Under the pieces are notes generated by a model. That model worked only from the letters and a program-made list of their open reading frames with translations, searched no databases and was not told the DNA's origin. This document shows, in pieces, positions 4,826 through 60,920 of a DNA stretch of 64,000 nucleotides. The DNA comes from Gemmatimonadota bacterium (GTDB lineage Bacteria; Gemmatimonadota; Gemmatimonadetes; Gemmatimonadales; GWC2-71-9). Numbering within the stretch: position 1 is the first letter of the stretch; each line of letters begins with the position of its first letter. The translations under genes and the position numbers were made by a program. The stretch covers positions 254,862 to 318,861 of the forward strand of contig JAZKBR010000007.1 of NCBI GenBank assembly GCA_040388535.1, in the 5' to 3' direction.

Positions 4826-4830
4826 CAAGA

Positions 4831-4938
4831 CTAGAGACTAGAGACTAGAGAAGAGAGAAGCTGTAAGGGCCGGCACCTCGTCACGAGATGCCGGCCCTCT
4901 CAGTCTCTAATCTCTGATCTCAAGTCTCTAGTCTCTGC
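4831..4938. repeat. Inverted heptamer arrays around a GC-rich hairpin (array A)
   Basis: The left arm has three exact copies of CTAGAGA (4831-4851) plus a degenerate AGAGAGA. The right arm has five 7-nt units, TCTCTAA, TCTCTGA, TCTCAAG, TCTCTAG and TCTCTGC (4904-4938). TCTCTAG is the exact reverse complement of CTAGAGA. Between the arms is a strong hairpin (separate entry). The element fills almost the whole gap between the kinase stop and tRNA-Pro. Confidence 0.85.
4866..4898. terminator. GC-rich hairpin between kinase gene and tRNA-Pro
   Basis: AGGGCCGGCA (4866-4875) pairs perfectly with TGCCGGCCCT (4889-4898). The inner CTCG and CGAG also pair, leaving a 3-nt loop. It could terminate both the + strand kinase transcript and the - strand tRNA-Pro transcript. 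It sits at the centre of heptamer array A. Confidence 0.65.
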
Positions 4939-4947
4939 TTTTCGCAT

Positions 4948-5020
<73 letters not shown>

Positions 5021-21663: not shown

Positions 21664-21754
21664 GATGAGGATGAGGGTGATGGGTGATGGGTGATGGGTT
21701 ATGGGCGATGGGTGATGGGTGATGGGTGATGGGTGATGGAGGATGGAGGAGGGA
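21664..21754. repeat. Tandem heptamer array, TGATGGG type (array B left arm)
   Basis: Thirteen consecutive 7-nt units, six of them exact TGATGGG, the rest one to three changes away (TTATGGG, CGATGGG, TGATGGA, GGATGGA). It fills the gap between the gntR promoter and the stop of the first secreted paralogue. The inverted partner lies at 23123-23206. Confidence 0.9.
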
Positions 21755-21765
21755 GATACGGAGAG

Positions 21766-22428
21766 CTAAGAGCGGGCCGGATCACCCCAAGGTGTGTAGT
21801 AGACCGTCCGGGAGACGTTTCGGATGCCTCGCGGGGGATTCTCGATCGAAATCCGAACCTCCAGGCTCTTGCCATCTCTGCTGCGTCGGAGCTCGCGCCG
21901 GATCGTGGTCGGGCATTCCGGCAATCCGCGTTCAACCTGCAGCGAGTTTCGTCCCCACTTGGCCATGAATTCAATGATGCCACCTGCCGCGAGTACTCCG
22001 GAATGCCAGCGCCCGTCAATCACTCCGTCAAGCGTTGCCGTCTCGCTCCCAGTGATAGTGACGAAGCCGCTATCCCCGGTGATGGTCAGCGAGCTGTCGG
22101 GCCGTCCATCGCGCGTCATCACTTCGAACTCCGCAGGCAACGCGTTCCCGGTGGGGTGCTTCGCAATTGTTGCCATGGTGACGGTCCTCCCGGACGCGAT
22201 CAAGCGCGCCCGCGACAACGAATCGGCAAGGGCGTATTCCGGAGCGATACGATCGCGCTTGACGATCGACCCACAAGCACTGAAGGCCTGAACGAAGGGT
22301 CGATCCCCCCTCGTGGGATCAAGCGACCACTTCCCCACGAGCGTGCGCATGACAGCGCCGGGAGACGGCGCCTGGCTCGGGAGCGGATAGGTCAGGATCG
22401 CGAGCGCAAATGCCAGGCGGCTGATCAT
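21766..22428 (-). CDS. Secreted protein, paralogue 3 of a tandem family
   Basis: A 220-residue exported protein with a signal peptide (A-F-A-L-A-I-L-T core). It shares with its two upstream neighbours an ordered set of motifs: G-x-W-x-x-D-x-x-R near the start, D-G-R-x-H, G-G-x-x-E, L-x-V-E-R-G-L-P-E, R-R-E and D-G-x-S-L-E-V. It is the most divergent copy and lacks the glycine-rich insert. The start overlaps the next gene's stop (ATGA). Function unknown; the pattern suggests a lipocalin-like or beta-sandwich secreted domain, which is a guess. Confidence 0.75.
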   Translation of the reverse strand: MISRLAFALAILTYPLPSQAPSPGAVMRTLVGKWSLDPTRGDRPFVQAFSACGSIVKRDRIAPEYALADSLSRARLIASGRTVTMATIAKHPTGNALPAEFEVMTRDGRPDSSLTITGDSGFVTITGSETATLDGVIDGRWHSGVLAAGGIIEFMAKWGRNSLQVERGLPECPTTIRRELRRSRDGKSLEVRISIENPPRGIRNVSRTVYYTPWGDPARS

Positions 22429-23039
22429 GGCATCGTCTCGCCAGTTCCGCGCGAATAGAAGAACCTCTTCTTCGTTTTCGGCCCAACCGAGGAGATTGTC
22501 ATCTGTACCTCAAGGCTGTTGCCATCAACTCCAAACCGAAATTCCCGACGCAACCCTAAGTGGCACTCCGGGATTCGACGTTCGACGATCAGCGTTTCGC
22601 CCTTCAAGCTCGCCTCAAACTCGACGAGCCCACCCTCCATCTGCGCCTCCTGGTGCCGTCGTCCATCCACACGCCACCGGGTCGCATACTTGGGGCTGTT
22701 GGAGATCACGACGACACTATCCTCTGCGTCGATCGTGATGCGAGCGAAGAGTCGGATTTCATCCATGAACGCGATGACCTTCGGGTCGAGTATCGGCCCC
22801 GCGCGGCCTGCCCCCGGAGGCGGGAAGTTTCCCTGTCGCACCAGATCCCGAGGCACCAGGGTGAGTTTGCCGCTGGCATGGCACCCGCCGGGGTATCGAC
22901 CGCCCGGGAACGAATCGCTGCGGGCCGCGTCATTCAGCCACGTTCCAGCGAATCCGTTCAGCGTTGTCGCAAGCGCCGTTTGCGCCGAGAGGGGTGCCGC
23001 AGCGAGAAGGAGGGCGAGCGGAGCAAGGCGTGAGCGCAC
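22425..23039 (-). CDS. Secreted protein, paralogue 2 of a tandem family
   Basis: A 204-residue exported protein. A GTG at 23039 with GGAG about 6 nt upstream gives a clean signal peptide (P-L-A-L-L-L-A-A-A-P-L-S-A-Q), better than an upstream TTG. It contains W-R-V-D-G-R-R-H-Q-E-A-Q-M-E-G-G, then L-I-V-E-R-R-I-P-E and R-R-E-F, nearly the same as in paralogue 1. A short F-P-P-P-G-A-G-R-A-G-P segment sits where paralogue 1 has its long glycine tract. It overlaps paralogue 3 by 4 nt. Function unknown. Confidence 0.78.
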   Translation of the reverse strand: MRSRLAPLALLLAAAPLSAQTALATTLNGFAGTWLNDAARSDSFPGGRYPGGCHASGKLTLVPRDLVRQGNFPPPGAGRAGPILDPKVIAFMDEIRLFARITIDAEDSVVVISNSPKYATRWRVDGRRHQEAQMEGGLVEFEASLKGETLIVERRIPECHLGLRREFRFGVDGNSLEVQMTISSVGPKTKKRFFYSRGTGETMP

Positions 23040-23122
23040 TGGTTTCTCCAAGGGGGATGGCAGCCCTCTCAAAATACTCCCTTAAAGCAAGAAGCGAGAG
23101 ACGAATCGCTCGCCCCTCGCCT

Positions 23123-23206
23123 CCATCATCCATCATCCATCATCCATCATCCATCATCCATCATCCCTCATCCCTCATCCATCATCCATCATCCATCACC
23201 CTCACC
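23123..23206. repeat. Tandem heptamer array, CCATCAT type (array B right arm)
   Basis: Twelve consecutive 7-nt units: eight exact CCATCAT, two CCCTCAT, then CCATCAC and CCTCACC. Its reverse complement (ATGATGG) is a rotation of TGATGGA, one base from the TGATGGG unit of the left arm at 21664-21754. The two arms enclose paralogues 2 and 3. The array fills the gap after the paralogue 1 stop. Confidence 0.9.
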
Positions 23207-23924: not shown

Positions 23925-24043
23925 GCGGCAACTCCTGCGAATGCGACACGGTGATGGGGGAACGGACCAGAGCGGCCCGACAGCATGATACGCCGGCCCA
24001 CATCATCAGGTTGCAGAGCGTGCGCCGGGCTGCGAGCGGCCGA

Positions 24044-33083: not shown

Positions 33084-34358
33084 TCAGGCATGCGAGCCCA
33101 TGTTCTCGACCATGGCGTTCCCGAATCCGCTGGTCGACACCTTGGTCGCACCCTCCATCAGTCGCTCGAAGTCGTACGTCACTCGCTTCTGTCCGATGGT
33201 TGCCGAGAGCGATTCAAGAATCAGGTCGGCGGCTTCGTTCCAGCCGAGGTAGCGCAGCATCATTTCGCCCGAGAGGATCACCGAGCCCGGATTCACCATG
33301 TCCTTGTCCGCGTATTTCGGGGCAGTACCGTGCGTCGCCTCGAAGATCGCGTGGCCGGTGACATAGTTGATGTTGGCCCCGGGCGCGATGCCGATGCCGC
33401 CGACCTGTGCCGCGAGCGCGTCGGAGATGTAATCGCCGTTGAGATTCAGCGTGGCGAGCACGCTATAGTCACGCGGACGCAGCAGAATCTGCTGCAGCAT
33501 GGCATCGGCGATTACGTCCTTGATGATCACGCCGTTTGGCAACACCTGCCATGGGCCCCCCTCGTGGTCGACCGCACCGAATTCCTCCTTCGCCACCGCA
33601 TAACCCCAGTCGCGGAAGCCGCCCTCGGTGTACTTCATGATGTTGCCTTTGTGCACCAGCGTCACGCTTGGCAACTTCTGGGCGATGGCATACTTGATCG
33701 CAGCCCGCACCAGCCGCTTCGAGCCCTCTTCCGACACCGGCTTGATGCCGATGGCGCTCGAGTCGGGAAAGCGGATGCTCTTGGCGCCCATCTCGTCCTG
33801 CAGGAAGGCAATGATCTTCTTCGCCTGATCACTGTGCGCTTCGTACTCGATGCCGGCGTAGATGTCTTCCGTGTTCTCACGGTAGATCACCATATCGACC
33901 GCGCCGGGATCCTTGACGGGCGAGGGCACACCGGTGAACCAGCGCACCGGGCGGACACAGGCGTAGAGATCGAGCTGCTGACGCAACGCGACATTCAGTG
34001 AACGGATGCCGCCACCGACCGGTGTGGTAAGCGGCCCCTTGATGGCGACCAGGTAATGGTTGATGGCGGTGATGGTGTCTTCGGGAAGCCAGGAGTCGAA
34101 CTTGTTCTTGGCCTTCTCGCCGGCGTACACCTCGAACCACGCCAGGCGGCGCTTGCCGCCGTAGGCAATCTTCACCGCACTGTCGAGCACGTGCCGCGAC
34201 GCGCGCCAGATGTCGGGACCAGTACCATCACCCTCGATGAAGGGGATGATCGGCGCGTCGGGCACCTGCAGCGCACCATCCTTGAGGGTGATCGGCGAGC
34301 CGTCGGTCGGCGCGGAAAGCTGCTGGAAGGCGGGCGAAGCCGCAGAATTGGTAGGCAT
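33084..34358 (-). CDS. icd: NADP-dependent isocitrate dehydrogenase
   Basis: A 424-residue citric-acid-cycle enzyme. It shows the substrate loop T-P-V-G-G-G-I-R-S120-L-N-V-A-L-R, the equivalent of the serine phosphorylated by AceK in E. coli, [13 protein letters not shown] and H-G-T-A-P-K-Y-A. The Lys-Tyr pair in the last motif predicts NADP rather than NAD. The ATG at 34358 is the first sensible start (family N-terminus); longer extensions do not match. The TATTAT six nucleotides before ATG suggests a leaderless transcript. No aceK in the window. Confidence 0.95.
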
Positions 34359-34418
34359 CCCGGAATAATAGCGCCGGAGCTCGCCCCTGCCACGCAGCGC
34401 GGTGATATCCTTCCGATC

Positions 34419-35294
34419 ATGGCGGACTCCCCCAAGCACCTCGCCCCTGCGCGACCGCTCCATCGCACCCACCTCGCCCTCAGCGCCCTCCGGACGGCAT
34501 TCGGAGCGGCTGGCCGGCTTGCCCCTGGCATGACCGCGCGCGCGGCGGAGGCGCTCTTCTTTCGGACCCCGCGAGGGGCAGCACGGGCCGAGGAGGTCGC
34601 GTTCCTGAAGACTGCGAACCGCTTTACGGTCAGCGCCGCTGGAGAGCGGGTGGCGGGGTATCACTGGGGAGGCAGCGGGCCACTGGTGGTGTTCGCTCAT
34701 GGCTGGCTCAGCAGCGCCGGTCGCGTCGCGCCACTCGCCAAGGCGATCCTCGCGGTCGGTGGTCAGGTAGCCACCTTTGACGCCCCGGGACACGGTGAGT
34801 CGACCGGCTGGCGTTCATCGATGCCCGAATTCGCCGCGGCGCTCCGAACAGTCGTCGCACAGGTGGGTCCGGCACACGCACTTGTCGGGCATTCGCTCGG
34901 AGGAGCTGCGTCGGTGTTTGCCGTCTCGCGAGGACTGCCCGTCAACCGGCTGGTCACCATCGCGGCGCCCGCCGACATCGCTGGCTGGGCCCACCGATTT
35001 CGCGACCTCCTCGGATTGTCGTCCGATGTCTACGCCCGGATGCAGCGCAATGCCGAGCAGCGACTCGCCATCACCTGGTCAGACCTCGACATTCCCATCG
35101 CGGCGCGCGACCTGCGCGTTCCCGGGCTTGTCGTGCACGACCTGGACGATCCGGACGTACCGTGGCAGGACGGCGAAACCCTATCGAGTGCCTGGCCGGG
35201 TGCCGAGTTCATGAGCACCACGGGCCTCGGGCACCGCGCCATCCTGCGCGATCCCGAGGTGATCCGTCGTGTAGTGGAGTTCGTGACGCGCTAG
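34419..35294 (+). CDS. Alpha/beta hydrolase
   Basis: A 291-residue hydrolase: oxyanion H-G-W-L-S, nucleophile elbow G-H-S-L-G-G, probable acid D in V-H-D-L-D-D-P-D-V and His in G-L-G-H-R-A-I-L. Residues 1-75 are an extra basic N-terminal segment. It diverges from icd with only 60 nt between the starts. Substrate unknown. Confidence 0.82.
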
Positions 35295-35312
35295 CCGCGC
35301 GCCAGGCCGGCT

Positions 35313-35687
35313 TCAGATCGGCTTGTAGATCGCAAACCACGCGGCGAGCGCACCGAGCAGGGGCAGCGCGAAGAGATAGACCTTGGCGACCTCCGGGCGA
35401 CGGTACGGTAGCGTCCCGAACACTCCCAGAATCACCCAGATCGTCAGCTTGGCCCAGATCCATCCCGGAAAGGCGCCGCGCACCATCCCGAGTCGCGCGA
35501 GCATGCCGAATCCGCCGAGCAGGATCACAAAGAGCGCCACACCGTGCAAGGCGCCGGCGAGCTTGCGGCCGACGTTGCTTTCGCGCGTCCCGCCATTCAG
35601 CACATGCAGCGCGATGCCGCCCAGAATGGTGAAGAGCAGGAACATCCCGGACAAATGCACAATCTTGTAGATGCCGTACGAAATCAT
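35313..35687 (-). CDS. Small integral membrane protein, unknown
   Basis: A 124-residue protein with four predicted transmembrane helices (about 5-27, 45-65, 75-93, 101-120). Conserved-looking residues are His11 in V-H-L-S-G-M, His48 in L-H-G-V-A and W-x-W-A-K-L. The layout recalls the SirB/CopD-like four-helix membrane families, some of which bind heme through such His, but I cannot place it. It lies between a hydrolase and a rhodanese gene. Confidence 0.65.
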   Translation of the reverse strand: MISYGIYKIVHLSGMFLLFTILGGIALHVLNGGTRESNVGRKLAGALHGVALFVILLGGFGMLARLGMVRGAFPGWIWAKLTIWVILGVFGTLPYRRPEVAKVYLFALPLLGALAAWFAIYKPI

Positions 35688-35721
35688 CGGTCAGCTTTCC
35701 CGCGGCCCGGGGCCGTCGCCA

Positions 35722-36630
35722 TCAGTTGGAGAGGGTGTGAAGTATCGACCTACGGGCGCTCGATCGGAGTGCGCACGGAGTTGCCCCACTCGGTCCACGA
35801 GCCGTCGTAGTTGCGCCGTTGGCCCAGCCGAGCAGGTAGGTCAGCACGAACCAGCTGTGGGACGAGCGTTCGCCAATGCGGCAGTAGACGATCAGGTCGG
35901 CGCCGGGGCTGAGCCCCTGCTCCGTCTCGTAGAGGGTGCGCAATTCGGCCGCTGACCGGAGAGTATGGGTCTCAGGATCGACCGCCTTGGCCCACGGCAC
36001 GCTGCGCGCGCCGGGGATATGTCCGCCACGTAACGCCCCTTCGTTGGGATAGTCGGGCATATGCATCCGCTCGCCGCGGAACTCTTCGGGCGAGCGCACG
36101 TCGACCAACTGACCGCCGCGCCCGACGTGCGCCAGCACATCGTCCTTGAAGGCACGAATAGTCGCATCCTGGCGCGGCCCCACCTCGATGTTGCCCGGCC
36201 GCACTACCGTGCGGTCGGTCACCAGCGGGCGGCCTTCTTCCTGCCAGCGTGCCCGTCCGCCGTCGAGCAGCCGAAGCTGCTTCAAACCGAAGAGCTGGAA
36301 GACCCAGAGCGCGTAGCACGCCCACCAGTTGTTCTTGTCGCCGTAGAACACGATGGTGGTATCGTCATCGATACCCCGTTCGCGCAGGAGTGCCTGAAAG
36401 CGATCGCGATCGACGTAATCACGGACGACGGCGTCGTTGAGGTCCTGTACCCAATCGATCTTCACCGCGCCGGGGATGTGCCCCGTCTCGTAGAGCAACA
36501 AGTCTTCGTTGGATTCGAGGAGCCGAACCTTCGGATCGTCGAGGTGCGCGGCGACCCACGCGCAATCCACCAGCACTTCCGGGTGGGCGTAACCACGGCT
36601 TCCGATGGCGGTGACAGCAGGAATGGACAT
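35722..36630 (-). CDS. Rhodanese-type sulfurtransferase, C-terminus frameshifted
   Basis: A two-domain sulfurtransferase. The N-terminal domain ends in the inactive-type G-D-K-N-N-W-W; the C-terminal domain has the catalytic Cys in [13 protein letters not shown], a thiosulfate-sulfurtransferase loop. After L-L-G-W-A-N-G the frame yields unrelated T-T-T-A-R-G-P sequence to 35722. In another frame, starting near 35815, the minus strand encodes [14 protein letters not shown] and stops at 35750, matching the rhodanese C-terminal signature (F/Y-D-G-S/A-W-x-E). A one-base loss near 35813-35820 therefore seems likely, either real or a sequence error. The start overlaps the upstream gene stop (TGATG). 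Confidence 0.85.
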
Positions 36631-37247
36631 CAGGGATTTCCCGGGCCAAGCAGGTCTTCGAGAACTTTGTCGACCACCTCGACGACTCGGCCCGACACAA
36701 TGCGTGCGAGCACGTCCACGGTCTCGAGTGGCAGCGATTCAGGGTGTTTGCGGTCCCGCTGAAACCGGACGATCTGGCCGAGGAGTACGGCGGCCATCGG
36801 CGACGCGCTCTCCTCGCTGGTCTCAGCGTCGTCATCCTCTGTCGCGTCGGCAACGGCACGTTCATAACTCGATGATGGCACGGAGGACGACCACGGCTCC
36901 GACTCGTCATCACCATCCGGTTCGATCGGTGTCGGTGGCATGGGGACGATCGCGTAGAGCTCACAGCGCAGGCCCGGTTCCTCCTCGCGCGCCGCGAGCA
37001 CCAGTTGCCGTGGCTCTCCGAAGACGCCGTGGCGCTCGAAATACTCGATCGCCCCCGGTGGCACTGCGCATCGAGCTACCAGATTGCCATCGAGGAAGGT
37101 GCCCAGGCATTTCATCCCTTCGGGGACGCGCTCGTCGCTGATCTCCTCGACACGGAGTGGCACCGGCGCGTCCGTCGCCGCCAGCACCGAAGCCGGCCGG
37201 GCTGCGTCGTCGTCGGGTGGTGTCAGGTCGAATGGCTCGTCGATCAT
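36630..37247 (-). CDS. Hypothetical acidic protein
   Basis: A 205-residue soluble protein of unknown function. Residues about 40-105 form a compact-looking core ([30 protein letters not shown]); 110-150 is Asp/Glu/Ser-rich and probably disordered; a C-terminal helix ends L-E-D-L-L. It is coupled to the rhodanese gene (TGATG), so a sulfur-related role is possible. No family recognised. Confidence 0.65.
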
Positions 37248-37330
37248 CGGTTCAGCCCCGGCTGGTTCGGAGAGGAAATCTACTCTCGTCGGCGTATGCC
37301 CCCTCCCCTACGTATGTTCTACGCCTCCCG

Positions 37331-38950
37331 ATGTCAGATCTCGCCGCGCTTCCGCCCTCGCTGGACCATACCGCCGCCGCCCGCTGGCCGACGCGCGCGG
37401 CGGCGCACGTACTGGGCGTCGGCCTGCTCCTGGCCGTGGTCGCGGCGTTACCGGCTTCGCCGAGCGACCTGGATCGACACCAGCTGCCGAAAGAGACGGC
37501 GGTCCATCTCGCCGTCTGGCTTGCGGTCGCACTGGCCCGTCCGTTTCCTGCTACCGGGCTTCGGCGCGCGACGAGCTGGAGCCTGGTCCTGCTGCTCGCG
37601 ATCACGATCGCCGCTACCGCCGGCGCGACCAACCTCTGGATGGCCGCGCGCGCCGCGGGACTCACCATCTCCGGAATCGCCGCACTCGTCACGGCGCGGC
37701 AGCTCGCCGCTGCCGGACTTGCCGACACCTTGCTCGGCTGGGCCGCAGTCGCCGCGGCGACCGGCACCGCCACGGGGCTCGCCCAGGCTTACGGCCTGAG
37801 TTCGCCGTTCTTTGCCGCGACACGCGCACCGGGTGGGACCTTCGGCAATCGCAACTTCATGGCTCACTTCGCTACCCTCAGTCTGCCGGTGGCCGGGGTC
37901 ATCGCGCTCGGTGCCCGGCGTCGATACGCCGTGATGGCGCTGCTGCTCACGATCGCGCTTGTCACCGCGATCGTCCTCTCCCGTTCACGCGCAGCGTGGC
38001 TCGGCACGGTTGCGGTCGCGGGCACCAGTGCACTGGTATTGCTGCAGGCGCGGCGACGCGGCGAGTTGCCGATCGCGCGTGGTCGCCCTGCGCTGCTCCT
38101 CGCGGCCGGCGCGCTCGGCGTGGTTGCCGCACTGACGATTCCGAATGTGCTGGAGTGGAAGGCCCGTTCGCCCTACGCCGAAACGCTCGGTGACATTGCC
38201 AATCGTCGCGAAGGGTCGGGGCGCGGCCGGATGGTCCAGTATCGCAACACGTTGAAGCTCGCGCTTGAGCATCCCGTGCTCGGTGTCGGTCCGGGAAACT
38301 GGCCCATCCGATATGGCGATGTCGCGCCCTCGTCCGACCCCTCGTGGGCCTTCGGCGATCCGGTGCCACTCAATCCCTGGCCATCGAGCGACTGGATGGC
38401 GGTGCTCAGCGAGCGAGGCATCATCGCCGTGGGAGCACTCGCCTTTCTCGGATTTGCCCTGGCCTGGCGCGGAGTGACCGCAGCGATGTCGGGGGGAACA
38501 CGCGCATTGAACGGCGCGGCGCTCCTGGCGCTCCTCGCGGCGGTCGCTGTGATCGGGGTATTCGATGCCGTGCTGCTCCTGCCGACGCCGCTGCTATTCG
38601 TCGCACTCGCGGCAGGGGCGCTGCTGCAACGTGCCGATGGCACGGCGTTGATCGAAGACGATGCACCACGGCATAGCACCGCATTCGGCACCGCAGTCAT
38701 GGTGCTGCTCTGCCTGATTGCCTTGCGCAGCGTCACCCAGACCACCGCGTACCTCGTCGCCGGCAATGGCCGCGACCTCCGCCGACTGACCTGGGCCGCA
38801 CGCATCGACCCCGGCAGCTATCCGATTCGCATCGCCCTCGCTGAGCGCGGTAACTGTGCTGCCGTGCGTGATGACGCCGCGGCAGCGCTTCGGATGGCCC
38901 CGAACTGGCCCGCGCCGAGAGCGGCGGCGCGCAGGTGCGGTGTGCGGTAG
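37331..38950 (+). CDS. O-antigen ligase/Wzy-type polytopic membrane protein
   Basis: A 539-residue protein with about eleven transmembrane helices. The Wzy_C/O-antigen-ligase mark is present: S-R-S-R-A-A-W-L before a helix, then a periplasmic loop with R-N-T-L-K-L-A-L-E-H-P-V-L-G-V-G-P-G-N-W. Such enzymes join or polymerise surface polysaccharide. The ATG at 37331 was chosen over longer frames that read into the upstream gene's leader. The C-terminal 60 residues are a small soluble tail with two Cys. No other polysaccharide genes are near. The heptamer array C begins 4 nt after its stop. Confidence 0.85.
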   Translation: MSDLAALPPSLDHTAAARWPTRAAAHVLGVGLLLAVVAALPASPSDLDRHQLPKETAVHLAVWLAVALARPFPATGLRRATSWSLVLLLAITIAATAGATNLWMAARAAGLTISGIAALVTARQLAAAGLADTLLGWAAVAAATGTATGLAQAYGLSSPFFAATRAPGGTFGNRNFMAHFATLSLPVAGVIALGARRRYAVMALLLTIALVTAIVLSRSRAAWLGTVAVAGTSALVLLQARRRGELPIARGRPALLLAAGALGVVAALTIPNVLEWKARSPYAETLGDIANRREGSGRGRMVQYRNTLKLALEHPVLGVGPGNWPIRYGDVAPSSDPSWAFGDPVPLNPWPSSDWMAVLSERGIIAVGALAFLGFALAWRGVTAAMSGGTRALNGAALLALLAAVAVIGVFDAVLLLPTPLLFVALAAGALLQRADGTALIEDDAPRHSTAFGTAVMVLLCLIALRSVTQTTAYLVAGNGRDLRRLTWAARIDPGSYPIRIALAERGNCAAVRDDAAAALRMAPNWPAPRAAARRCGVR

Positions 38951-38953
38951 GAC

Positions 38954-38984
38954 GAGAAGGGGGAAGGGAGAAGGGAGAAGGGAG
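38954..38984. repeat. Heptamer array GAGAAGG (array C left arm)
   Basis: Four tandem 7-nt units, three exact GAGAAGG and one GGGAAGG, plus a 3-nt remnant. It starts 4 nt after the stop of the O-antigen-ligase-type gene. The inverted partner lies directly after the four-helix-bundle gene. Confidence 0.9.
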
Positions 38985-39060
38985 CCGCACCCGCACAATC
39001 AGGACCGCTGCTGCGTACTGATGATGACCGGTTCTTGCGCTCTCCGGCAAACTTCCCCAC

Positions 39061-39402
39061 ATGAAATCGCACCGAGACTTGATCGCTTGGCAGGTCGCCC
39101 ACGAAAATGCACTCGAGGTCCATCGCTACGCGGAGGCGGCGTGGACTCCGGCTCGATCCACGATATTCGATCAGCTTCGCCGCGCTTCACTCTCTGTCCA
39201 GCTGAATCTCGCGGAAGGCTATGCGTCTGGAATCGGATCTCGTTGTCGATTTCACTTCCGAATCGCGCATGCGTCAGCCGTGGAGACGACCGAACTGTTG
39301 CGTTTCCTTGGGGACCTGGGTGCGCAGATCCCGACGCTCATCAGTATGTCCGTGCGAGCGCAGGGCTTAACGTATGGCCTTTGGAAGAAGTCCAGGGGCT
39401 AA
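39061..39402 (+). CDS. Four-helix-bundle protein (23S rRNA intervening-sequence / S23 family)
   Basis: A 113-residue protein matching the IVP/S23 four-helix-bundle family: D-L-I-A-W-Q near the N-terminus, then R-R-A-S-L-S-V-Q-L-N-L-A-E-G, F-x-x-I-A-x-A-S-A-x-E-T-x-E-L-L, and a terminal L-T-Y-G-L-W-K-K-S. Family members are found inside 23S rRNA intervening sequences, as free genes, and as the related Avd protein of diversity-generating retroelements. They are basic pentameric nucleic-acid-binding bundles. Here the gene lies alone between inverted heptamer arrays, with 76 nt before the ATG and none after the stop. No reverse transcriptase or rRNA is nearby. No Shine-Dalgarno is visible. Confidence 0.87.
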   Translation: MKSHRDLIAWQVAHENALEVHRYAEAAWTPARSTIFDQLRRASLSVQLNLAEGYASGIGSRCRFHFRIAHASAVETTELLRFLGDLGAQIPTLISMSVRAQGLTYGLWKKSRG

Positions 39403-39434
39403 TTCTCCCTTCTCCCTTCTCCCTTCTCCCTTCT
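39403..39434. repeat. Heptamer array TTCTCCC (array C right arm)
   Basis: Four exact tandem TTCTCCC units plus TTCT. The reverse complement GGGAGAA is a rotation of the left-arm GAGAAGG. It begins at the base after the four-helix-bundle stop codon and ends 4 nt before the stop of the convergent sulfurtransferase gene. Confidence 0.9.
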
Positions 39435-39438
39435 TATC

Positions 39439-40284
39439 TTATCGGCCATACTCCGCCCAACTCCCATCATACACCGCCACCGGCGCCCCCACTCCTTCCG
39501 GATCCGCGGCGCGAATCACCTCGACCGCGAGCGCGAGAGTGCACGCCGTCACGCCGGATCCGCAGGTGGAAATCATCGGCCGCGACAGATCGATGCCATG
39601 TTCACGCAACAGTGCGCGCAACTCGGCCGGTGACTTGAACAACCGCGTCGCCGGATTGGTGAACTCGGCGAAGGGCGTGTTCACGCTGCCGGGTATGTGC
39701 CCGCGCCGGAGACCGGCGCGTGGCTCGTCCTCGGTGCCATTGAACCGCGGAGCCGAACGGCAGTCGGCGATCTGCGCGGACTCGGAACCCGAGACGACTC
39801 GGTCGACCTCCGCCCGATCCCGTACCAGCGAACGATCGATGACGGGAACGCGGTAGCCGGTGGGAAGTCGGCGGACGACGCCACGCTGTACCGGACGAGT
39901 TTCGCGAGCCCACGCGCCGAAGCCGCCGTCGAGCACCGAGACGTTGTGGTGGCCGAAGACGCGGAACATCCACCAGGCGCGTGCGGAACTCAGATTCAGG
40001 CCACTGCCGTCGTAGCAGATCACCCGGTCATCGGGGCGGATGCCGAGACGCTCGGCGATGCCGGCAAACCGCTCTGCCGACGGCAGCATGTGGGGAAGAT
40101 CGGCATCGGGGTCACTGGCGGCATCGAGATCGAACCGGACGGCACCGGGGACGTGGGCCGCGAGATATTCGCTATCGGCATCGCGCCCCATCGCCGGCAG
40201 ATAATACGATGCGTCAAGCACGACGATCCCGGGCTCGTGACCGTGTGCCGTGAGCCAGTTGGCCGAAACCAGGGGAGGGGTCAT
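39439..40284 (-). CDS. sseA: 3-mercaptopyruvate sulfurtransferase-type rhodanese
   Basis: A 281-residue two-domain sulfurtransferase. The catalytic loop is S-T-C-G-S-G-V-T-A, the C-G-(S/T)-G-V-T form typical of mercaptopyruvate sulfurtransferases rather than thiosulfate sulfurtransferases. The C-terminal signature is V-Y-D-G-S-W-A-E-Y. The ATG at 40284 gives the usual family length; a TTG 27 nt upstream is less likely. It moves sulfur from 3-mercaptopyruvate to thiol acceptors or cyanide. The second rhodanese of the window lies about 3 kb away on the same strand. SufE is encoded divergently. Confidence 0.9.
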   Translation of the reverse strand: MTPPLVSANWLTAHGHEPGIVVLDASYYLPAMGRDADSEYLAAHVPGAVRFDLDAASDPDADLPHMLPSAERFAGIAERLGIRPDDRVICYDGSGLNLSSARAWWMFRVFGHHNVSVLDGGFGAWARETRPVQRGVVRRLPTGYRVPVIDRSLVRDRAEVDRVVSGSESAQIADCRSAPRFNGTEDEPRAGLRRGHIPGSVNTPFAEFTNPATRLFKSPAELRALLREHGIDLSRPMISTCGSGVTACTLALAVEVIRAADPEGVGAPVAVYDGSWAEYGR

Positions 40285-40331
40285 CGGAGCGGCACTAGAT
40301 TCCACGCGCAATCCTCGAGGATGATCTGGCG

Positions 40332-40754
40332 ATGGTATTCGATACCCTGATAAATCGCTTCCGGGCCGCCGATCGCAACACCCGGCTCGAGACGCTGCTC
40401 GACTACTCCCGTAAGCTACCCGAGTTGCCCGCGGAGTTGCGGGTAGCGAGCGATCTGGAGGCCCATCGCGTCACCGAATGCCAGACGCCGGTTTTCCTCT
40501 GGGTCGGCGTTGCCGGCAGTGCCGTAACAATACATGCCGAGATTCCGCGGGAGTCGCCCACCGTCCGCGGCTTCGTCTCGCTCCTTGTTGCCCGGCTCAA
40601 CGGGGCCTCTCCGGCCGATGTCGCGGCGGTCCCCGATGACCTGCTCGACCAGCTCGCGCTGGGCGAGACCCTCGGCATGATGCGCACCCAGGGACTCACC
40701 GCCATACTCGGCCGGATCAAGCGATCGGTCGCCGCAGCCAATACGGGGAGATGA
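40332..40754 (+). CDS. sufE: SufE-family sulfur acceptor
   Basis: A 140-residue protein of SufE length. The persulfide-carrying Cys50 sits in R-V-T-E-C-Q-T-P-V-F-L, matching V-x-G-C-Q-S-x-V in E. coli SufE. It takes sulfur from a SufS-type cysteine desulfurase for Fe-S cluster assembly. No suf or isc genes accompany it. The next gene starts 1 nt after its stop. Confidence 0.9.
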   Translation: MVFDTLINRFRAADRNTRLETLLDYSRKLPELPAELRVASDLEAHRVTECQTPVFLWVGVAGSAVTIHAEIPRESPTVRGFVSLLVARLNGASPADVAAVPDDLLDQLALGETLGMMRTQGLTAILGRIKRSVAAANTGR

Positions 40755-40755
40755 G

Positions 40756-41046
40756 ATGTACGCCCTTATCCTGATTCGCTATCGCCGGCCCCTCGAGGAA
40801 ATCGTCGCGGCCACCGAGGGTCACCGGAATTACCTCAAGACCCTGAAGGCCGAGGGGGTCCTGCTTGCCTCCGGGCCGTTCGATCCGCGCGTAGGGGGTG
40901 CCTTGTTGCTCCGGGTGCCGGACGGCGACACGCGTGCGCTCGACCGGATTCGCGACAACGACCCCTTCTTCCGCGACGGGCTCGCCAACTACGAACTGTT
41001 ACCCTGGAACCCGGTGCTGGGCGCCGAAGGCCTCGATCAGCTGTAG
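40756..41046 (+). CDS. YciI-family protein
   Basis: A 96-residue ferredoxin-like-fold protein with the YCII pattern: H-x-x-Y-L-K at about 23-28 and L-L-A-S-G-P-F-D-P, supplying the paired His and Asp of the putative active site, then D-P-F-x-x-x-G-L near the end. Reaction unknown for most members. Probably co-transcribed with sufE. Confidence 0.85.
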   Translation: MYALILIRYRRPLEEIVAATEGHRNYLKTLKAEGVLLASGPFDPRVGGALLLRVPDGDTRALDRIRDNDPFFRDGLANYELLPWNPVLGAEGLDQL

Positions 41047-41169
41047 CGCGGAGCTTGGCCTGCCCGCGAAACCGCGACCGGGCATTCTCCGTTGTTGACC
41101 CACCCGACAACTTCTGGCAGTGTTAGTGGTTCCCGGACAGCTCTCCCGCCTCATCCCGAAAGGATCCTG

Positions 41170-42783
41170 ATGCAACGCCGCGACTTCCTGGCCGTCTCCG
41201 GCTTGGCCGCGGGGCTCTCCCTGGCTCCGCTCCGCCGTACTGGCGCCCTGACTCCGATTCCCAGCGCCGACAAGAAGGCCCTCGCCGATGCCGCCCTCGG
41301 CGCGGCGCGCGGAGCCGGCGCCTCGTATGCCGACGTCCGGATCGGACGCTACCGCAATCAGTTCGTCTCGGCCCGGGAGCGAAAGATCAATGCCGTCGCC
41401 GACTCCGAATCATTCGGCGCGGGAATCCGGGTCATCGCACAGGGCACCTGGGGCTTCGCCGCCACCAACGATCTCACCGTCGACGGGATTGCGAAGGCCG
41501 CGCGGCAGGCGGTCGCTATCGCGAAGGCCAATGCGATCCTGCAGACCGAGCCGGTGCAGCTCGCCCGGGAACCCGGCTACGGCGAAGTGAGCTGGAAGAC
41601 ACCGATCGAAGTCAACGCCTTCGACATCCCGATCCAGCAGAAGGTTGATCTGCTGATGTCGGTCGGCGACGCCGCGATGACCGCGGGGGCGACCTTCATC
41701 AACATGAACATCGGCCTCGTCAATGAACAGAAATATTTTGCCAACACCGACGGCACCTACGCCGACCAGGATATCCACCGGATCTCCCCCGGCTTCAACG
41801 TCACCGTGGTCGACCGCACGACGGGCGCCTTCCAGACGCGAGCCTCGCTGAGCGCGCCGATGGGGATGGGCTGGGAATACCTGACGCTGCGCGCGCAGGA
41901 TCGCCTGGTGGGCCCCGCTTCGGTGCTCTACAACCGATCGTACGACATGGTGGAAGATGCAAGGCTCGCCGCGGAGCAAGCGAAGGCCAAGCATGGGGCC
42001 ACGTCGGTTACGCCGGGGAAATACACGCTGGTGCTCGATCCGACTCACCTCTGGCTGACCATTCATGAGTCGGTGGGGCATCCGCTCGAGCTGGATCGCA
42101 TCCTCGGCTACGAAGCGAATTACGCTGGCACCTCCTTCGCCTCGCTCGACAAGCTCCGTTCGAAGACGTTCCGGTATGGCTCCCCTGCCGTCAACATCGT
42201 CGCCGACAAGCTGGAGCCGGGTTCCCTCGGCGCGTGCGGCTGGGACGACGAGGGGGTCAAGACGCAGAAGTGGGATCTCGTCAAGGACGGCATCCTCACC
42301 GACTTCCAGGCGATCCGCGACCAGGCGCATATCCTGGGTCACGCGCGATCCCACGGCTGCTGCTATGCCGACAACTGGAGCTCGGTGCAATTCCAGCGGA
42401 TGCCGAATGTCTCGCTCGCACCGGGCAACGCACCACTTCTCCCCGCCGCGATGATCGCCAATGTCGAGAAGGGGATCTACATCCTCGGCAATGGCTCGTA
42501 TTCGATCGACCAGCAGCGCTACAACTTCCAGTTCGGTGGCCAGCTGTTCTACGAGATCCGGAACGGCAAGATCACCGGCCAGCTGAAGGATGTGGCCTAT
42601 CAGGCCAACACCCTGGAATTCTGGAACTCGACGACGGCGACGTGCGACAAACGCGACTGGCGGCTTGGCGGATCGTTCAATGACGGCAAGGGACAGCCAG
42701 GGCAGTCGAGTGCTGTCTCGCACGGTTGCTCCACCACACGGTTCGACGGCATCAACGTCATCAACACGGCGAGGAAGCTCTGA
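41170..42783 (+). CDS. tldD: Tat-exported TldD-family metalloprotease, copy 1
   Basis: A 537-residue TldD protein. AAAGGA precedes the ATG, which opens a twin-arginine leader (R-R-D-F-L-A-V-S-G-L-A-A-G). The zinc motif H-E-x-x-x-H is H299-E300-S-V-G-H304. Also typical are N-I-V-A-D, G-C-C-Y-A-D-N-W and the terminal S-A-V-S-H-G-C-S. TldD forms a heterodimeric protease with TldE (PmbA) and cleaves unfolded peptides such as microcin B17 and CcdA in E. coli, where it is cytoplasmic. The Tat leader implies folded export here. The stop overlaps the TldE start (TGATG). Confidence 0.93.
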   Translation: MQRRDFLAVSGLAAGLSLAPLRRTGALTPIPSADKKALADAALGAARGAGASYADVRIGRYRNQFVSARERKINAVADSESFGAGIRVIAQGTWGFAATNDLTVDGIAKAARQAVAIAKANAILQTEPVQLAREPGYGEVSWKTPIEVNAFDIPIQQKVDLLMSVGDAAMTAGATFINMNIGLVNEQKYFANTDGTYADQDIHRISPGFNVTVVDRTTGAFQTRASLSAPMGMGWEYLTLRAQDRLVGPASVLYNRSYDMVEDARLAAEQAKAKHGATSVTPGKYTLVLDPTHLWLTIHESVGHPLELDRILGYEANYAGTSFASLDKLRSKTFRYGSPAVNIVADKLEPGSLGACGWDDEGVKTQKWDLVKDGILTDFQAIRDQAHILGHARSHGCCYADNWSSVQFQRMPNVSLAPGNAPLLPAAMIANVEKGIYILGNGSYSIDQQRYNFQFGGQLFYEIRNGKITGQLKDVAYQANTLEFWNSTTATCDKRDWRLGGSFNDGKGQPGQSSAVSHGCSTTRFDGINVINTARKL

Positions 42784-44099
42784 TGGCGATGCTCACGGAA
42801 GCGCAGGCGCGCGAACTCCTCGATCGGGTGCTCAAGCAGTCGCAGGCCGAAGCCTGTGCCGCGAGCGCGGGCGGTTCGCACGGTGGCAACATCCGCTACG
42901 CCCGCAACACGGTGACCACGGCCGGCGAGGAAACCGATCAGCGCCTCAACGTCACGGCCATCTTCGGCAAGCGCAGCGGCTCGTCCAGCACGAACGACTT
43001 CTCGTCGGAGTCGATCACCGCCTGCGTGCGACGGGCGGAGTCGCTCGCGAAGCTCTCCCCCGAGAATCCGGAATCAATGCCGTTGCTCGGCGCTCAGAGC
43101 TACCGCCCGACGCCGGCATGGAATGACCGTACTGATGGCGTCACGGCAATGGACCGGGCCCGGATTGCGGCAGCCAGCATCCAGCCCGCGAAGGCGGCCA
43201 AGTGCGTCGCGGCCGGTTTCGAGAACGACTCGGCCCGCTGGACCGCCAATGCCAACTCGGCCGGACAATTCGGCTACCATCGCAGCACGGCCGCCGCGTT
43301 CTCCGTGACGATGCGCACGGACGATGAGACCGGTTCCGGTTACGCCACCACCGACGCCAACGACTTCGGCGGGCTCGGGGCCGAGCGCGCATCGCAGTCG
43401 GCGATCCAGAAGGCTGTCGCGTCGCGCCAGGCACGCGCGCTCGAGCCCGGGAAGTACACCGTGATCCTCGAGCCACCGGCATCCGAGGAGCTGCTCGGGT
43501 TCCTCTGGGGCCAGTTCAACGCCCGCAATGCGGATGAGGGCCGCTCGTTCCTTGCCAAACAGGGCGGTGGCAACCGGCTCGGCGAGAAGCTCTTCGACGA
43601 GAGCGTGACCGTGCGATCGGATCCGTGGGACGCGCGCATTCCCGGCGCGCCATGGGGCGGTGACGGCGCACCGGCGCAGGCAACGACCTGGATCGACAAG
43701 GGCGTGGTGAAGTCGCTCGCGTGCAACCGCTACTGGGCCGAGAAGACTGGCCGCTCGCCGCTGAACGGCCCCGGCAACATCATCATGGAAGGCGGCACAG
43801 GGAGCGTCGACGACCTGATCAAGGGCACCGAGCGCGGCATCCTGGTGACCCGCTTCTGGTATATCCGGTCGGTGGACCAGCAGACGGTGCTCGCCACCGG
43901 CCTCACCCGCGACGGCACCTTCTATATCGAGAATGGACAGATCAAGCACGCCGTGAAGAATTTCCGGTTCAATGAGTCGCCGGTAATCATGCTCAACAAC
44001 GTCGACGCGCTGGCAGCCCCGGTGCGGATCAACGGTTCGCTGCTGCCGCCCATGCGAATCCGCGACTTCACCTTCACCTCGCTCTCGGACGCGATCTGA
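42783..44099 (+). CDS. pmbA: TldE/PmbA-family partner, copy 1
   Basis: A 438-residue PmbA/TldE homologue: G-N-I-R-Y-A-R-N near the start, G-R-S-F-L-A-K-Q-G-G-G, W-I-D-K-G-V-V-K, T-E-R-G-I-L-V-T-R and a terminal P-P-M-R-I-R-D-F-T-F-T-S-L-S. It lacks the H-E-x-x-x-H motif, as expected for the non-catalytic partner. It has no signal sequence of its own, so if it pairs with the Tat-TldD it would need to be carried across with it. Begins at the TGATG overlap. Confidence 0.92.
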   Translation: MAMLTEAQARELLDRVLKQSQAEACAASAGGSHGGNIRYARNTVTTAGEETDQRLNVTAIFGKRSGSSSTNDFSSESITACVRRAESLAKLSPENPESMPLLGAQSYRPTPAWNDRTDGVTAMDRARIAAASIQPAKAAKCVAAGFENDSARWTANANSAGQFGYHRSTAAAFSVTMRTDDETGSGYATTDANDFGGLGAERASQSAIQKAVASRQARALEPGKYTVILEPPASEELLGFLWGQFNARNADEGRSFLAKQGGGNRLGEKLFDESVTVRSDPWDARIPGAPWGGDGAPAQATTWIDKGVVKSLACNRYWAEKTGRSPLNGPGNIIMEGGTGSVDDLIKGTERGILVTRFWYIRSVDQQTVLATGLTRDGTFYIENGQIKHAVKNFRFNESPVIMLNNVDALAAPVRINGSLLPPMRIRDFTFTSLSDAI

Positions 44100-44116
44100 G
44101 ACGGAGGAGCAATACC

Positions 44117-45751
44117 ATGTCGACGCGAAGGGATTTCATCTCGACCACTTCGGCGGCAGCCGGGTTCGCCCTGCTGGCACGCAACGGGCGCCCAGTCGCC
44201 TCGTTCAGCGGACTGATCACGCCGCTGCCGACCGCCGACAAGAAGGCGCTTGCCGATGTCGCGCTCAACACGGCCCGCGGCAAGGGTGCCAGCTACGCCG
44301 ATGTCCGCATCGGACGCTATCTCAACGAAGGCATTTTCTCGCGCGACCGGATGATCCAGGGGGTCCAGAGCACCGAGTCGTATGGCGCGGGAGTTCGAGT
44401 GCTGGTGGATGGCACCTGGGGCTTCGCCGCGACCGATGTCGTGACATCGGACGGCATCGCCCGGGCGGCCAATGACGCCGTTGCCATTGCCAAAGCCAAT
44501 AGCAAGCTCGGCTCACGTCCGGTCGAACTCGCGGCGCAGCGCGGGTACGGTGAGGTGACCTGGAAAGCCCCGATCGAGAAGAACGCCTTCTCGATTCCGA
44601 TCGCCGAAAAGGCGGCCCTCCTCACCGCCGCCGGTGATGCGGCGCTCAAGGCCGGCGCCTCCTTCCTCGACGGCGCGCTCTTCGTGGTGAACGAACAGAA
44701 GTATTTCGCCTCCACCGACGGCTCCTACATCGACCAGGATATTCATCGGCTCTGGCCGACCTTCACGGCGACGTACGTCGACGCCAAGTCGGGCAAGTTC
44801 GAGACTCGGGACGCGTTGTCCAGCCCGGTCGGCATGGGTTGGGAGTACCTCTCGACGCGGCCGCAGGACAAGGTCACCGGTCCTGCCGGCGTGCTGTACG
44901 GCAATCGGTATGACCTCGTTGCCGATGCAGCGCAAGCGGCACGCGACGCCAAGGGCAAGTTGACGGCGACCTCCGTCACACCGGGCAAGTACGACCTGGT
45001 GCTCGAGCCGGCGCACATGTGGCTGACGATTCACGAATCGGTGGGCCATCCGACCGAACTCGACCGCGTCCTCGGGTACGAGGCCAACTTCGCTGGCACC
45101 TCCTTCGCCACGCTCGACAAGTGGAAGAGCGGGACCTTCAAGTACGGCTCCCCGCTGATGAACATCGTCGCCGACAAGCTCCAGCCGGGATCGCTCGGCG
45201 CGGTCGGTTATGACGACGAAGGAGTGAAGACGAAGGAGTGGGACATCATCAAGGACGGCGTTCTGGTGAACTATCAGGCGATCCGCGATCAGGTGGGCGT
45301 GCTCGGGCAGACTGAATCGCAGGGCTGCTGCTACGCCGATAACTGGAGCTCGGTACAGTTCCAGCGGATGCCGAACATCTCGCTCCGCCCGGGACGCACC
45401 CCGCTCACGCCGACCGAACTGATTGCCAAGGTTGAACGCGGGATCTACATCGTCGGTGCGGGGTCGTTCTCCATCGACCAGCAGCGCTACAACTTCCAGT
45501 TCGGCGGCCAGACCTTCCACGAGATCAAGAACGGCAAGCTTGCAGGTCCGCTCAAGGATGTGGCGTACCAGAGCAACACGACCGAATTCTGGAATTCGCT
45601 CACCGCGGTCTGTGACGGCCGGGACTATCGACTTGGCGGCTCTTTCTTTGACGGCAAGGGGCAGCCTTCCCAGTCGAGCGCGGTATCGCACGGCTCATCC
45701 ACGGCTCGATTCAATGGCGTAAACGTCATCAACACCGCGAGGAAGATCTGA
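44117..45751 (+). CDS. tldD: Tat-exported TldD-family metalloprotease, copy 2
   Basis: A 544-residue second TldD. GGAGG precedes the ATG; the leader R-R-D-F-I-S-T-T-S-A-A-A-G is Tat-type. The zinc motif is H306-E-S-V-G-H311. It is collinear with copy 1 over its whole length, with the same G-C-C-Y-A-D-N-W and S-A-V-S-H-G ends, but many substitutions, so the duplication is not recent. The stop overlaps the second TldE start (TGATG). Confidence 0.93.
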   Translation: MSTRRDFISTTSAAAGFALLARNGRPVASFSGLITPLPTADKKALADVALNTARGKGASYADVRIGRYLNEGIFSRDRMIQGVQSTESYGAGVRVLVDGTWGFAATDVVTSDGIARAANDAVAIAKANSKLGSRPVELAAQRGYGEVTWKAPIEKNAFSIPIAEKAALLTAAGDAALKAGASFLDGALFVVNEQKYFASTDGSYIDQDIHRLWPTFTATYVDAKSGKFETRDALSSPVGMGWEYLSTRPQDKVTGPAGVLYGNRYDLVADAAQAARDAKGKLTATSVTPGKYDLVLEPAHMWLTIHESVGHPTELDRVLGYEANFAGTSFATLDKWKSGTFKYGSPLMNIVADKLQPGSLGAVGYDDEGVKTKEWDIIKDGVLVNYQAIRDQVGVLGQTESQGCCYADNWSSVQFQRMPNISLRPGRTPLTPTELIAKVERGIYIVGAGSFSIDQQRYNFQFGGQTFHEIKNGKLAGPLKDVAYQSNTTEFWNSLTAVCDGRDYRLGGSFFDGKGQPSQSSAVSHGSSTARFNGVNVINTARKI

Positions 45752-47085
45752 TGGCGCTCATTACCGAGGCCGAAGCCAAGGCCATCATCGACCGCGTGCT
45801 CGCCCGTTCGAAGGCCGAAGATTGCGTGGTGTACCTGAACGAGGGGACGAGCGGCAACATCCGCTTCGCCCGGAACGCGGTCAGCACCTCGGGCAGCGCG
45901 CACAACACCTCGCTCTTCGTGGTATCCGCGTTCGGAAAGCGATCGGGCGGCGCGAGCGTCAACTCGCTGGACGATGAGTCGATTGCCCGGCTCGTCGCTC
46001 GCTCGGAAGAACTCGCTCGCCTGGCTCCGGAAGATCCAGAATACATGCCACCGCTCGGGCCGCAGAAGTACGCCGTCGGACGCGACTGGGCGGATAGCAC
46101 GGCGGCACTCGACCCCGACAAGCGTGCGGCCATCGCCCAGATCGGGCTCGACGCCGCCAAGGCGAAGGGATGCGTTGCTGCCGGCTATCTGGACCACAGC
46201 GACGGGATCAGTGCGATGGGGACCTCCAAGGGGCTCTTCGCGTACGATCGCTCCACGGCGGCCGGATACTCGGTCACCATGCGGACCGAGGATGGCCTGG
46301 GATCCGGCTTCGGCACGACGGACTCTCACGATGCATCGCGCCTCGATGTCGCCGGGGTATCGCGTCTCGCCGCCGAAAAAGCGGCGGCATCGCACGAGAC
46401 TCGCGCGGTGGAGCCGGGCAAGTACACCGTGATTCTCGAACCGGCCGCGTCGGTGGACCTGATCCAGAACATTCTCTTCTCGATGGACGCACGCAGCGCG
46501 GAGGAAGGCCGGTCGTTCCTCTCGAAGCAGGGCGGCGGGACGCGACTCGGCGAGAAGATGCTCGATGAACGAGTGAACATCTACTCCGACCCCATGGACC
46601 CGATCGGCCCGGCCACGCCGTGGACCGGCGATGGGCGACCGTTGGAGCGGACATCATGGATCGAGAAGGGAGTGGTGAAGAACCTTTCCTACTCCCGCTA
46701 CTGGGCGCAGAAGCGGAACGTTCCGGCGCAACCCGGACCGGCGAACTTCCTGATGGCCGGCGGGACAGCATCGACGGAAGAGCTGATCCGTGGGACCGAG
46801 CGCGGCATCCTGGTCACCCGCACCTGGTACATTCGCTCGGTCGACCCGCAGACCCTGCTCTTCACCGGGCTCACTCGCGACGGGACCTTCTACATCGAGA
46901 ACGGCAAGCTCGCCTACGCGGTAAAGAATTTCCGCTTCAACGAGTCACCAGTCATCATGCTGAACAACCTCGATGCGCTTGGCGCGCCCGTGCGGGTTCG
47001 CAATGCCGAGACGGGGCTGGTCTCGGTGATTCCGCCGATGCGGATCCGCGACTTCACCTTCTCCTCGCTTTCGGACGCGGTGTAG
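45751..47085 (+). CDS. pmbA: TldE/PmbA-family partner, copy 2
   Basis: A 444-residue TldE collinear with copy 1 (G-N-I-R-F-A-R-N; G-R-S-F-L-S-K-Q-G-G-G; W-I-E-K-G-V-V-K; T-E-R-G-I-L-V-T-R; end P-P-M-R-I-R-D-F-T-F-S-S-L-S). No H-E-x-x-x-H and no leader peptide. A short insertion (N-A-E-T-G-L-V-S) near the C-terminus separates it from copy 1. 21 nt then lead into the DUF4159 gene. Confidence 0.92.
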   Translation: MALITEAEAKAIIDRVLARSKAEDCVVYLNEGTSGNIRFARNAVSTSGSAHNTSLFVVSAFGKRSGGASVNSLDDESIARLVARSEELARLAPEDPEYMPPLGPQKYAVGRDWADSTAALDPDKRAAIAQIGLDAAKAKGCVAAGYLDHSDGISAMGTSKGLFAYDRSTAAGYSVTMRTEDGLGSGFGTTDSHDASRLDVAGVSRLAAEKAAASHETRAVEPGKYTVILEPAASVDLIQNILFSMDARSAEEGRSFLSKQGGGTRLGEKMLDERVNIYSDPMDPIGPATPWTGDGRPLERTSWIEKGVVKNLSYSRYWAQKRNVPAQPGPANFLMAGGTASTEELIRGTERGILVTRTWYIRSVDPQTLLFTGLTRDGTFYIENGKLAYAVKNFRFNESPVIMLNNLDALGAPVRVRNAETGLVSVIPPMRIRDFTFSSLSDAV

Positions 47086-60852: not shown

Positions 60853-60861
60853 GCAACAACA

Positions 60862-60920
60862 GGGTGACGGATGACGGATGATCGATGGCTCCTTATCCAT
60901 CATCCATCATCCATTATCCA
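60862..60920. repeat. Inverted heptamer arrays (array D)
   Basis: Left arm: GGGTGAC, GGATGAC, GGATGAT, CGATGGC (60862-60889). Right arm: TTATCCA, TCATCCA, TCATCCA, TTATCCA (60893-60920). The reverse complement of TCATCCA is a rotation of GGATGAT. Only 3 nt separate the arms, so the transcript can fold into one long imperfect hairpin, directly ahead of a strong terminator. Confidence 0.85.

Follow-up and report, generated by a model that had tools for sequence, protein, structure and literature searches.

The structure of an IVP/S23 protein has been available since 2006 (2gsc), and to our knowledge the function of the family is not known. We know of no recombinase or nuclease site in its four-helix fold. 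The STRR of cyanobacteria are dispersed heptamer repeats. Other repeats of this kind are GGGAATC in Xanthomonas, with 70–75 inverted pairs per genome, and GGGGA(C/T)T in Nostoc, for which no origin was given (PMC4692102); the TAACTGA repeats of Beggiatoaceae were likewise described without an origin (PMC4679880). Neither S23 nor 23S turned up in a term search of these two papers. The nearest known kind of element to the one analyzed here is the intervening sequence (IVS) of 23S rRNA. The IVS of Coxiella has terminal inverted repeats with an S23 open reading frame (ORF) in the loop, is excised by RNase III, and carries two to three tandem GACAGAT heptamers ahead of the ORF (PMC4990558). A Xanthomonas S23 protein is cited in the same paper as a homopentamer (PMC4990558).

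In this study, an IVP gene between inverted 7-nt arrays was analyzed at positions 38954–39434 of the window, which means the whole stretch of DNA that was analyzed (64,000 nt). The unit resembles the 23S rRNA IVS of Coxiella and Leptospira, which is about 430 nt long and whose terminal inverted repeat encloses an IVP ORF in its loop. It differs from these elements in its position between protein genes, in the tandem arrays on both sides, and in having relatives that are mobile between plasmid sites. The features of the locus are as follows.

37157..38950, plus strand: O-antigen ligase gene (Wzy_C; PF04932, 57.5 bits), kept in congeners; the left arm lies next to its stop codon
38954..38984, plus strand: left G-rich heptamer arm of the GAGAAGG/GGGAGAA type (TRF: 4.4 copies, 91% matches)
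38985..39060, plus strand: non-array leader of 76 nt from the left arm to the IVP ATG (from the sequence)
39061..39402, plus strand: gene of the IVP/S23 four-helix-bundle protein, 113 aa (PF05635, TIGR02436, AlphaFold, Foldseek)
39403..39434, plus strand: right C-rich heptamer arm, TTCTCCC (TRF: 4.6 copies, 100% matches)
39439..40311, minus strand: convergent gene of a rhodanese-type sulfurtransferase (PF00581, 89.4 bits), kept in congeners; its stop codon abuts the right arm

The IVP gene (39061–39402) was read in the sequence with GGGAGAA heptamers on its left and TTCTCCC heptamers on its right. The right arm is the reverse complement of the left arm, and its first base is +1 after the IVP stop codon. 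An earlier note on this DNA had claimed inverted heptamer arrays enclosing the gene, which was borne out by the sequence and TRF, and a right array starting at the base after the stop, which the sequence confirmed. The note had also claimed that the interval lacked other DNA. This was correct in that the arms and the gene fill most of it, but a 76-nt non-array leader precedes the ATG. The intergenic space is bounded by the convergent stop codons of the O-antigen ligase (38948–38950) and rhodanese (39439–39441) genes, and the unit lies between these two genes and not inside a 23S rRNA gene. There was no Rfam match within positions 34000–44000 of the window.

The period-7 scores of the two arms were 18 and 25, and no period-7 run scoring at least 18 was found in 60 Markov-1 copies of the 64-kb window. 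A chance origin of the arrays was ruled out by these copies together with the shuffles and the control-gene flanks given below. When folded, the interval gave a single hairpin (z = −6.0), in which the arms pair as a terminal stem of ~31 bp and the IVP ORF occupies the loop, in agreement with the hairpin that had been proposed.

The 113-aa ORF matched PF05635 with 51.5 bits (cut-off 33.8) and TIGR02436 with 47.5 bits (cut-off 24). The AlphaFold model of the monomer showed four helices with a pLDDT of 96.5. The top Foldseek matches of the model were 2gsc and 2rld, both of the S23 family, with a TM of ~0.75–0.83 for most chains; the Avd-type structures 4dwl and 8ub7 were also listed, weakly. Avd, the accessory protein of diversity-generating retroelements (DGRs), has a four-helix-bundle fold and is structurally related to S23 (PMC10053308; Foldseek). 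From this kinship the unit could be read as a DGR or group II-type retroelement, with IVP as the Avd-like partner of a reverse transcriptase. However, the RVT_1 profile had no match in the window's genome or in 55 of the 61 genomes searched, whereas IVP was present in 53 of the 61. The absence of a reverse transcriptase sets the window's genome apart from Avd/DGR systems. The retro-type element suspected in the earlier note was therefore rejected, barring a reverse transcriptase in the missing 2% of this genome or beyond the reach of the profile, and a retroelement origin is extremely unlikely.

The 61 genomes were those searched around the window's own, and they contained up to 12 IVP genes each. 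Within the window's order, 51 IVP genes with both flanks were sampled. Period-7 arrays were present in 18 upstream and 9 downstream flanks and in 0 of the shuffles, and repeat periods besides 7, 14, and 8 were near zero. A cross-phylum sample of 96 IVP genes was drawn from plasmids, most of them cyanobacterial, and from GTDB genomes spanning many phyla; the collection was searched for IVP relatives with a single protein as query. Here 30 upstream and 25 downstream flanks had period-7 arrays, against 5 and 4 of the far flanks and 0 of the shuffles, and period 7 was the only strongly enriched repeat period. Arrays were found in 21/84 and 20/84 of IVP flanks (~25%), compared with 1/102 and 2/134 (~1%) for other genes at the same loci. 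The enrichment of inverted 7-nt arrays around other IVP genes, on which the earlier note had staked its claim, was thus strong in the 51-, 84-, and 96-gene sets.

The two flanks of an IVP gene were also complementary. Left–right complementarity reached or exceeded the 99th percentile of mismatched pairs in 45 of the 96 cross-phylum genes and in 23 of the 51 genes of the window's order. The heptamer varies from locus to locus, though both arms of a locus match. Left arms had G over C in a ratio of 51:7, right arms C over G in a ratio of 39:5, and in half of the cases the right array started no more than 10 nt past the stop codon of IVP. Octamers replaced heptamers at a minority of IVP loci. Clade-specific recognition of the heptamer by IVP was considered and found no support: protein identity predicted the heptamer only above ~65%, mostly at shared loci. 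No IVP was found in phage records. At some IVP genes (L057, L058, L045, and L092, in G039, G041, and G053), long non-tandem inverted flanks stand in place of the heptamer arrays.

The window's site was compared with that of congeners at 56–66% protein identity. Seven congeners had the same convergent gene pair without IVP, the coding matches lying ~10–130 nt apart, so that at this distance the site lacks the insertion, in support of the mobile element claimed in the earlier note. IVP-less heptamer hairpins with heptamers of their own occupied the site in G001 and G009, and no hairpin was found there in G005 or in the IVP-less G006. At the convergent site 60849/60990, hairpins with different heptamers were present in three genomes (G009 and G001 included), and the IVP-less G006 had a plain terminator without a heptamer hairpin. 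The pgi site carried IVP in four congeners with four different arm heptamers, IVP being forward in two and reversed in two; the hairpin stood alone in G009, and nothing was found in G006 or in G012, a more distant genome that also lacks IVP. Orthologously placed IVPs at a third site (G004, G007, and G008) had differing arms. The window's IVP was nearest to the pgi-site IVP of G005 (71% at the nucleotide level), which has the same heptamer type and unrelated flanks. Since heptamers change at one locus while IVP stays, the arms do not simply descend together with the gene. The comparison of orthologous sites showed that the cassettes move and that the arms are rewritten on both sides together.

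Mobility was seen at closer range on cyanobacterial plasmids. In a Nostoc plasmid series with 89–95% identity, the same site held (AGGGAAC)n-IVP-(GTTCCCT)n in two records, was empty in two, and held an IVP-less armed hairpin in one. A (TCAGGAG)n cassette on an Aulosira plasmid was missing from five related plasmids, of which three were read in sequence. The 416-bp Aulosira cassette recurs in Trichormus and Scytonema next to a TrbI/VirB10 gene, at a site unrelated to the first. A copy with a truncated IVP on a plasmid of Nostoc TCL26-01 is a deletion derivative, and a Halotia plasmid carries a short copy that shares the arm and the context of the start. In neither of the two plasmid series was a target-site duplication evident; small target changes were seen at the junctions. 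The dN/dS of IVP between copies at unrelated sites was 0.10, indicating purifying selection; therefore, the protein matters to the element or to its host. The filled and empty sites and the occurrence of one cassette at unrelated sites supported the small mobile element with heptamer-array ends that had been claimed. Judged from these sequence comparisons, the arm–IVP–arm unit is mobile.

MITEs and REPINs are likewise short inverted-repeat elements with many copies and internally deleted forms, and MITE-like deletion derivatives with the same ends were found among the plasmid relatives. The cassette differs from them in that its arms are tandem arrays of locus-specific sequence and that no tracking transposase was found.

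The folding of the interval into a single hairpin whose loop contains the ORF is also consistent with RNA regulation or IVS-like excision. The arms would then be an RNase III substrate or an RNA stem bound by IVP, through which the IVP message is released or repressed, and the arrays would form a selected IVP regulon. The anatomy of the Coxiella 23S IVS and its excision by RNase III point the same way (PMC4990558). However, such a function leaves the filled and empty sites and the copies at unrelated sites unexplained, and the heptamers differ at orthologous sites of related species. An explanation at the RNA level was considered improbable.

Three more inverted heptamer pairs, with other heptamers, were found in the window.

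4828..4937, no strand assigned: inverted AGACTAG/CTAGTCT arms around a GC-rich, strong terminator-like hairpin (TRF)
21675..23198, no strand assigned: inverted GGGTGAT/ATCATCC arrays around two minus-strand genes (TRF)
60859..60920 (pair 60865/60920), no strand assigned: IVP-less GGATGAC/ATCATCC hairpin at the 3' ends of a convergent pair (TRF)

Therefore, the arrays are not unique to the IVP gene. The AGACTAG arms adjoin a tRNA-Pro gene (4947–5020, minus strand). The two genes inside 21675–23198 had no Pfam match and are similar to the next gene (23217–24002). Since the genes flanking this region are directly adjacent to each other in G009 and G006, it looks like a second, larger insertion. 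In G060, the IF-1 gene (infA) is bracketed by inverted GTGACTA heptamer arrays (L085, 5989–6429), so the cargo is not always IVP.

There are two IVP genes in the window's assembly. The second (C1:178180) is likewise exactly bracketed by inverted heptamer arrays, with the heptamer GATGACA, which is a rotation of the GACAGAT of the Coxiella IVS. The GGGAGAA array occurred at ~35 places in the window's genome, and a reversed control pattern had no match. With ~35 such places against two IVP genes, the arrays are not exclusive to IVP, and the view of them as ends of an IVP element alone was rejected. Many of the GGGAGAA places consist of a short inverted pair that flanks a terminator or another palindrome. 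Most of the IVP-less hairpins read in this genome surround native terminators or palindromes and are not IVP remnants, and in most of the examples read the G-rich arm lies shortly after a stop codon. Two dispersed palindromic repeats were also observed: GTCATCCTGAGCGAAGCGA... in intergenic regions (L010, L031, and L378), lying within GGGAGAA arms in L010, and a second repeat of the GTCGCTAAAGCGAC / GTGGCTAAAGCCAC type, which fills intergenic regions (L381, the pgi site of G007, and L016). The window further contains two tandem PmbA/TldD metallopeptidase pairs (four genes, 41170–47082).

The main rival explanation is that IVP is passive cargo. Hairpins would arise at gene 3' ends by slippage and template switching without IVP, and IVP genes, selfish or useful, would enter the loops by recombination between like arms. 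Passive entry agrees with IVP-less hairpins being far more numerous than IVP genes and occurring at orthologous sites, with arm sequences that change while IVP stays, with other genes bracketed by arrays, and with IVP-bearing genomes that have no arrays. It does not agree with the enrichment at IVP genes across phyla, the near absence of arrays from the sampled IVP-less genomes, the complete armed cassettes at unrelated sites, or the truly empty sites. On this balance it was judged unlikely, while retaining an appreciable chance of being right.

The dependence of the arrays on IVP was investigated with random stretches of genomes. One period-7 array was found in 338 kb from six IVP-less genomes, against 34 in 760 kb of IVP-bearing genomes. 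The association was significant on pooled counts (p = 4e-5), whereas the test per genome gave only p = 0.057 because several IVP-bearing genomes were without arrays. Among genomes with IVP, the sampled stretches had no arrays in G043, G058, and G024 and none or few in G053 and G039, and array density did not scale with IVP number. The per-genome result and the lack of scaling count against the cassette. Among 35 Xanthomonas species, GGGANYS matches numbered 24–180 without an intact IVP and 130–426 in the others (Mann–Whitney p = 4e-5 with two damaged IVPs taken as absent and p = 0.01 otherwise, kinship being uncorrected).

Hairpin elements are typical substrates of REP-associated Y1 transposases. 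The hairpins could be moved in trans by a transposase of a known family such as this one, either resident or belonging to the host, and Y1_Tnp had two matches in the window's genome. However, Y1_Tnp was absent from the array-rich G009 and G060 and present in the array-less G045 and G047. A Y1 transposase was rejected as the mover, and movement by such an enzyme is very unlikely.

The results are best explained if (GGGAGAA)n-leader-IVP-(TTCTCCC)n is a copy of a mobile hairpin cassette in which IVP acts on the arms; this was considered reasonably likely. Sequence comparison showed that arms and IVP form a joint unit in many phyla, that this unit is present or absent at collinear sites and recurs at unrelated ones, that its orientation within a site varies between species, and that some hairpins lack IVP and some copies carry internal deletions. 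The IVP protein, which in a solved relative is a four-helix bundle assembled as a pentamer, may bind the arms as a folded DNA or RNA stem. It would be the cassette's own factor, enabling armed hairpins to arise, spread, and be maintained in trans, and host replication or recombination enzymes would perform strand transfer and copying. Slippage by 7 nt could lengthen the arms, and template switching inside the hairpin could keep them complementary. Insertions lie at gene 3' ends and in operon gaps, where hairpins cause little harm. The dispersed heptamer hairpins of the genome may be non-autonomous members, to which the mobile cassette probably gives rise. Besides the statistics above, the bracketing of infA and of a two-gene pair by arrays, the change of heptamer with IVP kept, and the lack of a visible target-site duplication speak against the cassette.

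The repeats of Xanthomonas, Nostoc, and Beggiatoaceae and the STRR are intergenic tandem heptamers like the arrays of the window, which differ in being tied to IVP genes and mobility. Tentatively, IVP/S23 proteins may be mobility factors of cross-phylum hairpins that need no known transposase, integrase, or reverse transcriptase and that rewrite their arms 7 nt at a time, the sequence being freely chosen. These hairpins may also be the common source of the 23S IVS and of the heptamer repeats of Xanthomonas, cyanobacteria, and Beggiatoaceae. Taken as a whole, this wider proposal is possible but somewhat doubtful. The results connect two puzzles across phyla, namely the IVP/S23 family without a known function and the bacterial heptamer repeats that have been without an origin for decades. 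A mobile unit with defined ends makes the function of the S23 family testable in laboratory strains. It also suggests how the intervening sequences that split 23S rRNA could have come from ordinary intergenic cassettes, and indicates a type of mobile DNA that is little known and a possible source of bacterial 7-nt repeats. Outside rRNA, no paper in openly licensed full text was found to connect IVP with such inverted arrays, which is weak evidence of novelty.

Several IVP genes were found in unusual surroundings. On cyanobacterial plasmids, IVPs lie inside CRISPR operons, between cas6 and cas4 in Pseudanabaena (L103) and between cas10 and a Cmr3-family gene in Picosynechococcus (L111), and another (L105) lies between two ribonucleotide reductase genes. 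In Xanthomonas, an IVP cassette stands between carA and carB in 4 of the 35 species examined, and in most other species the gap is filled by different DNA of similar length. In Xanthomonas codiaei, one of the four (L177, 2900–3400), the left array seems to be in frame and to extend carA.
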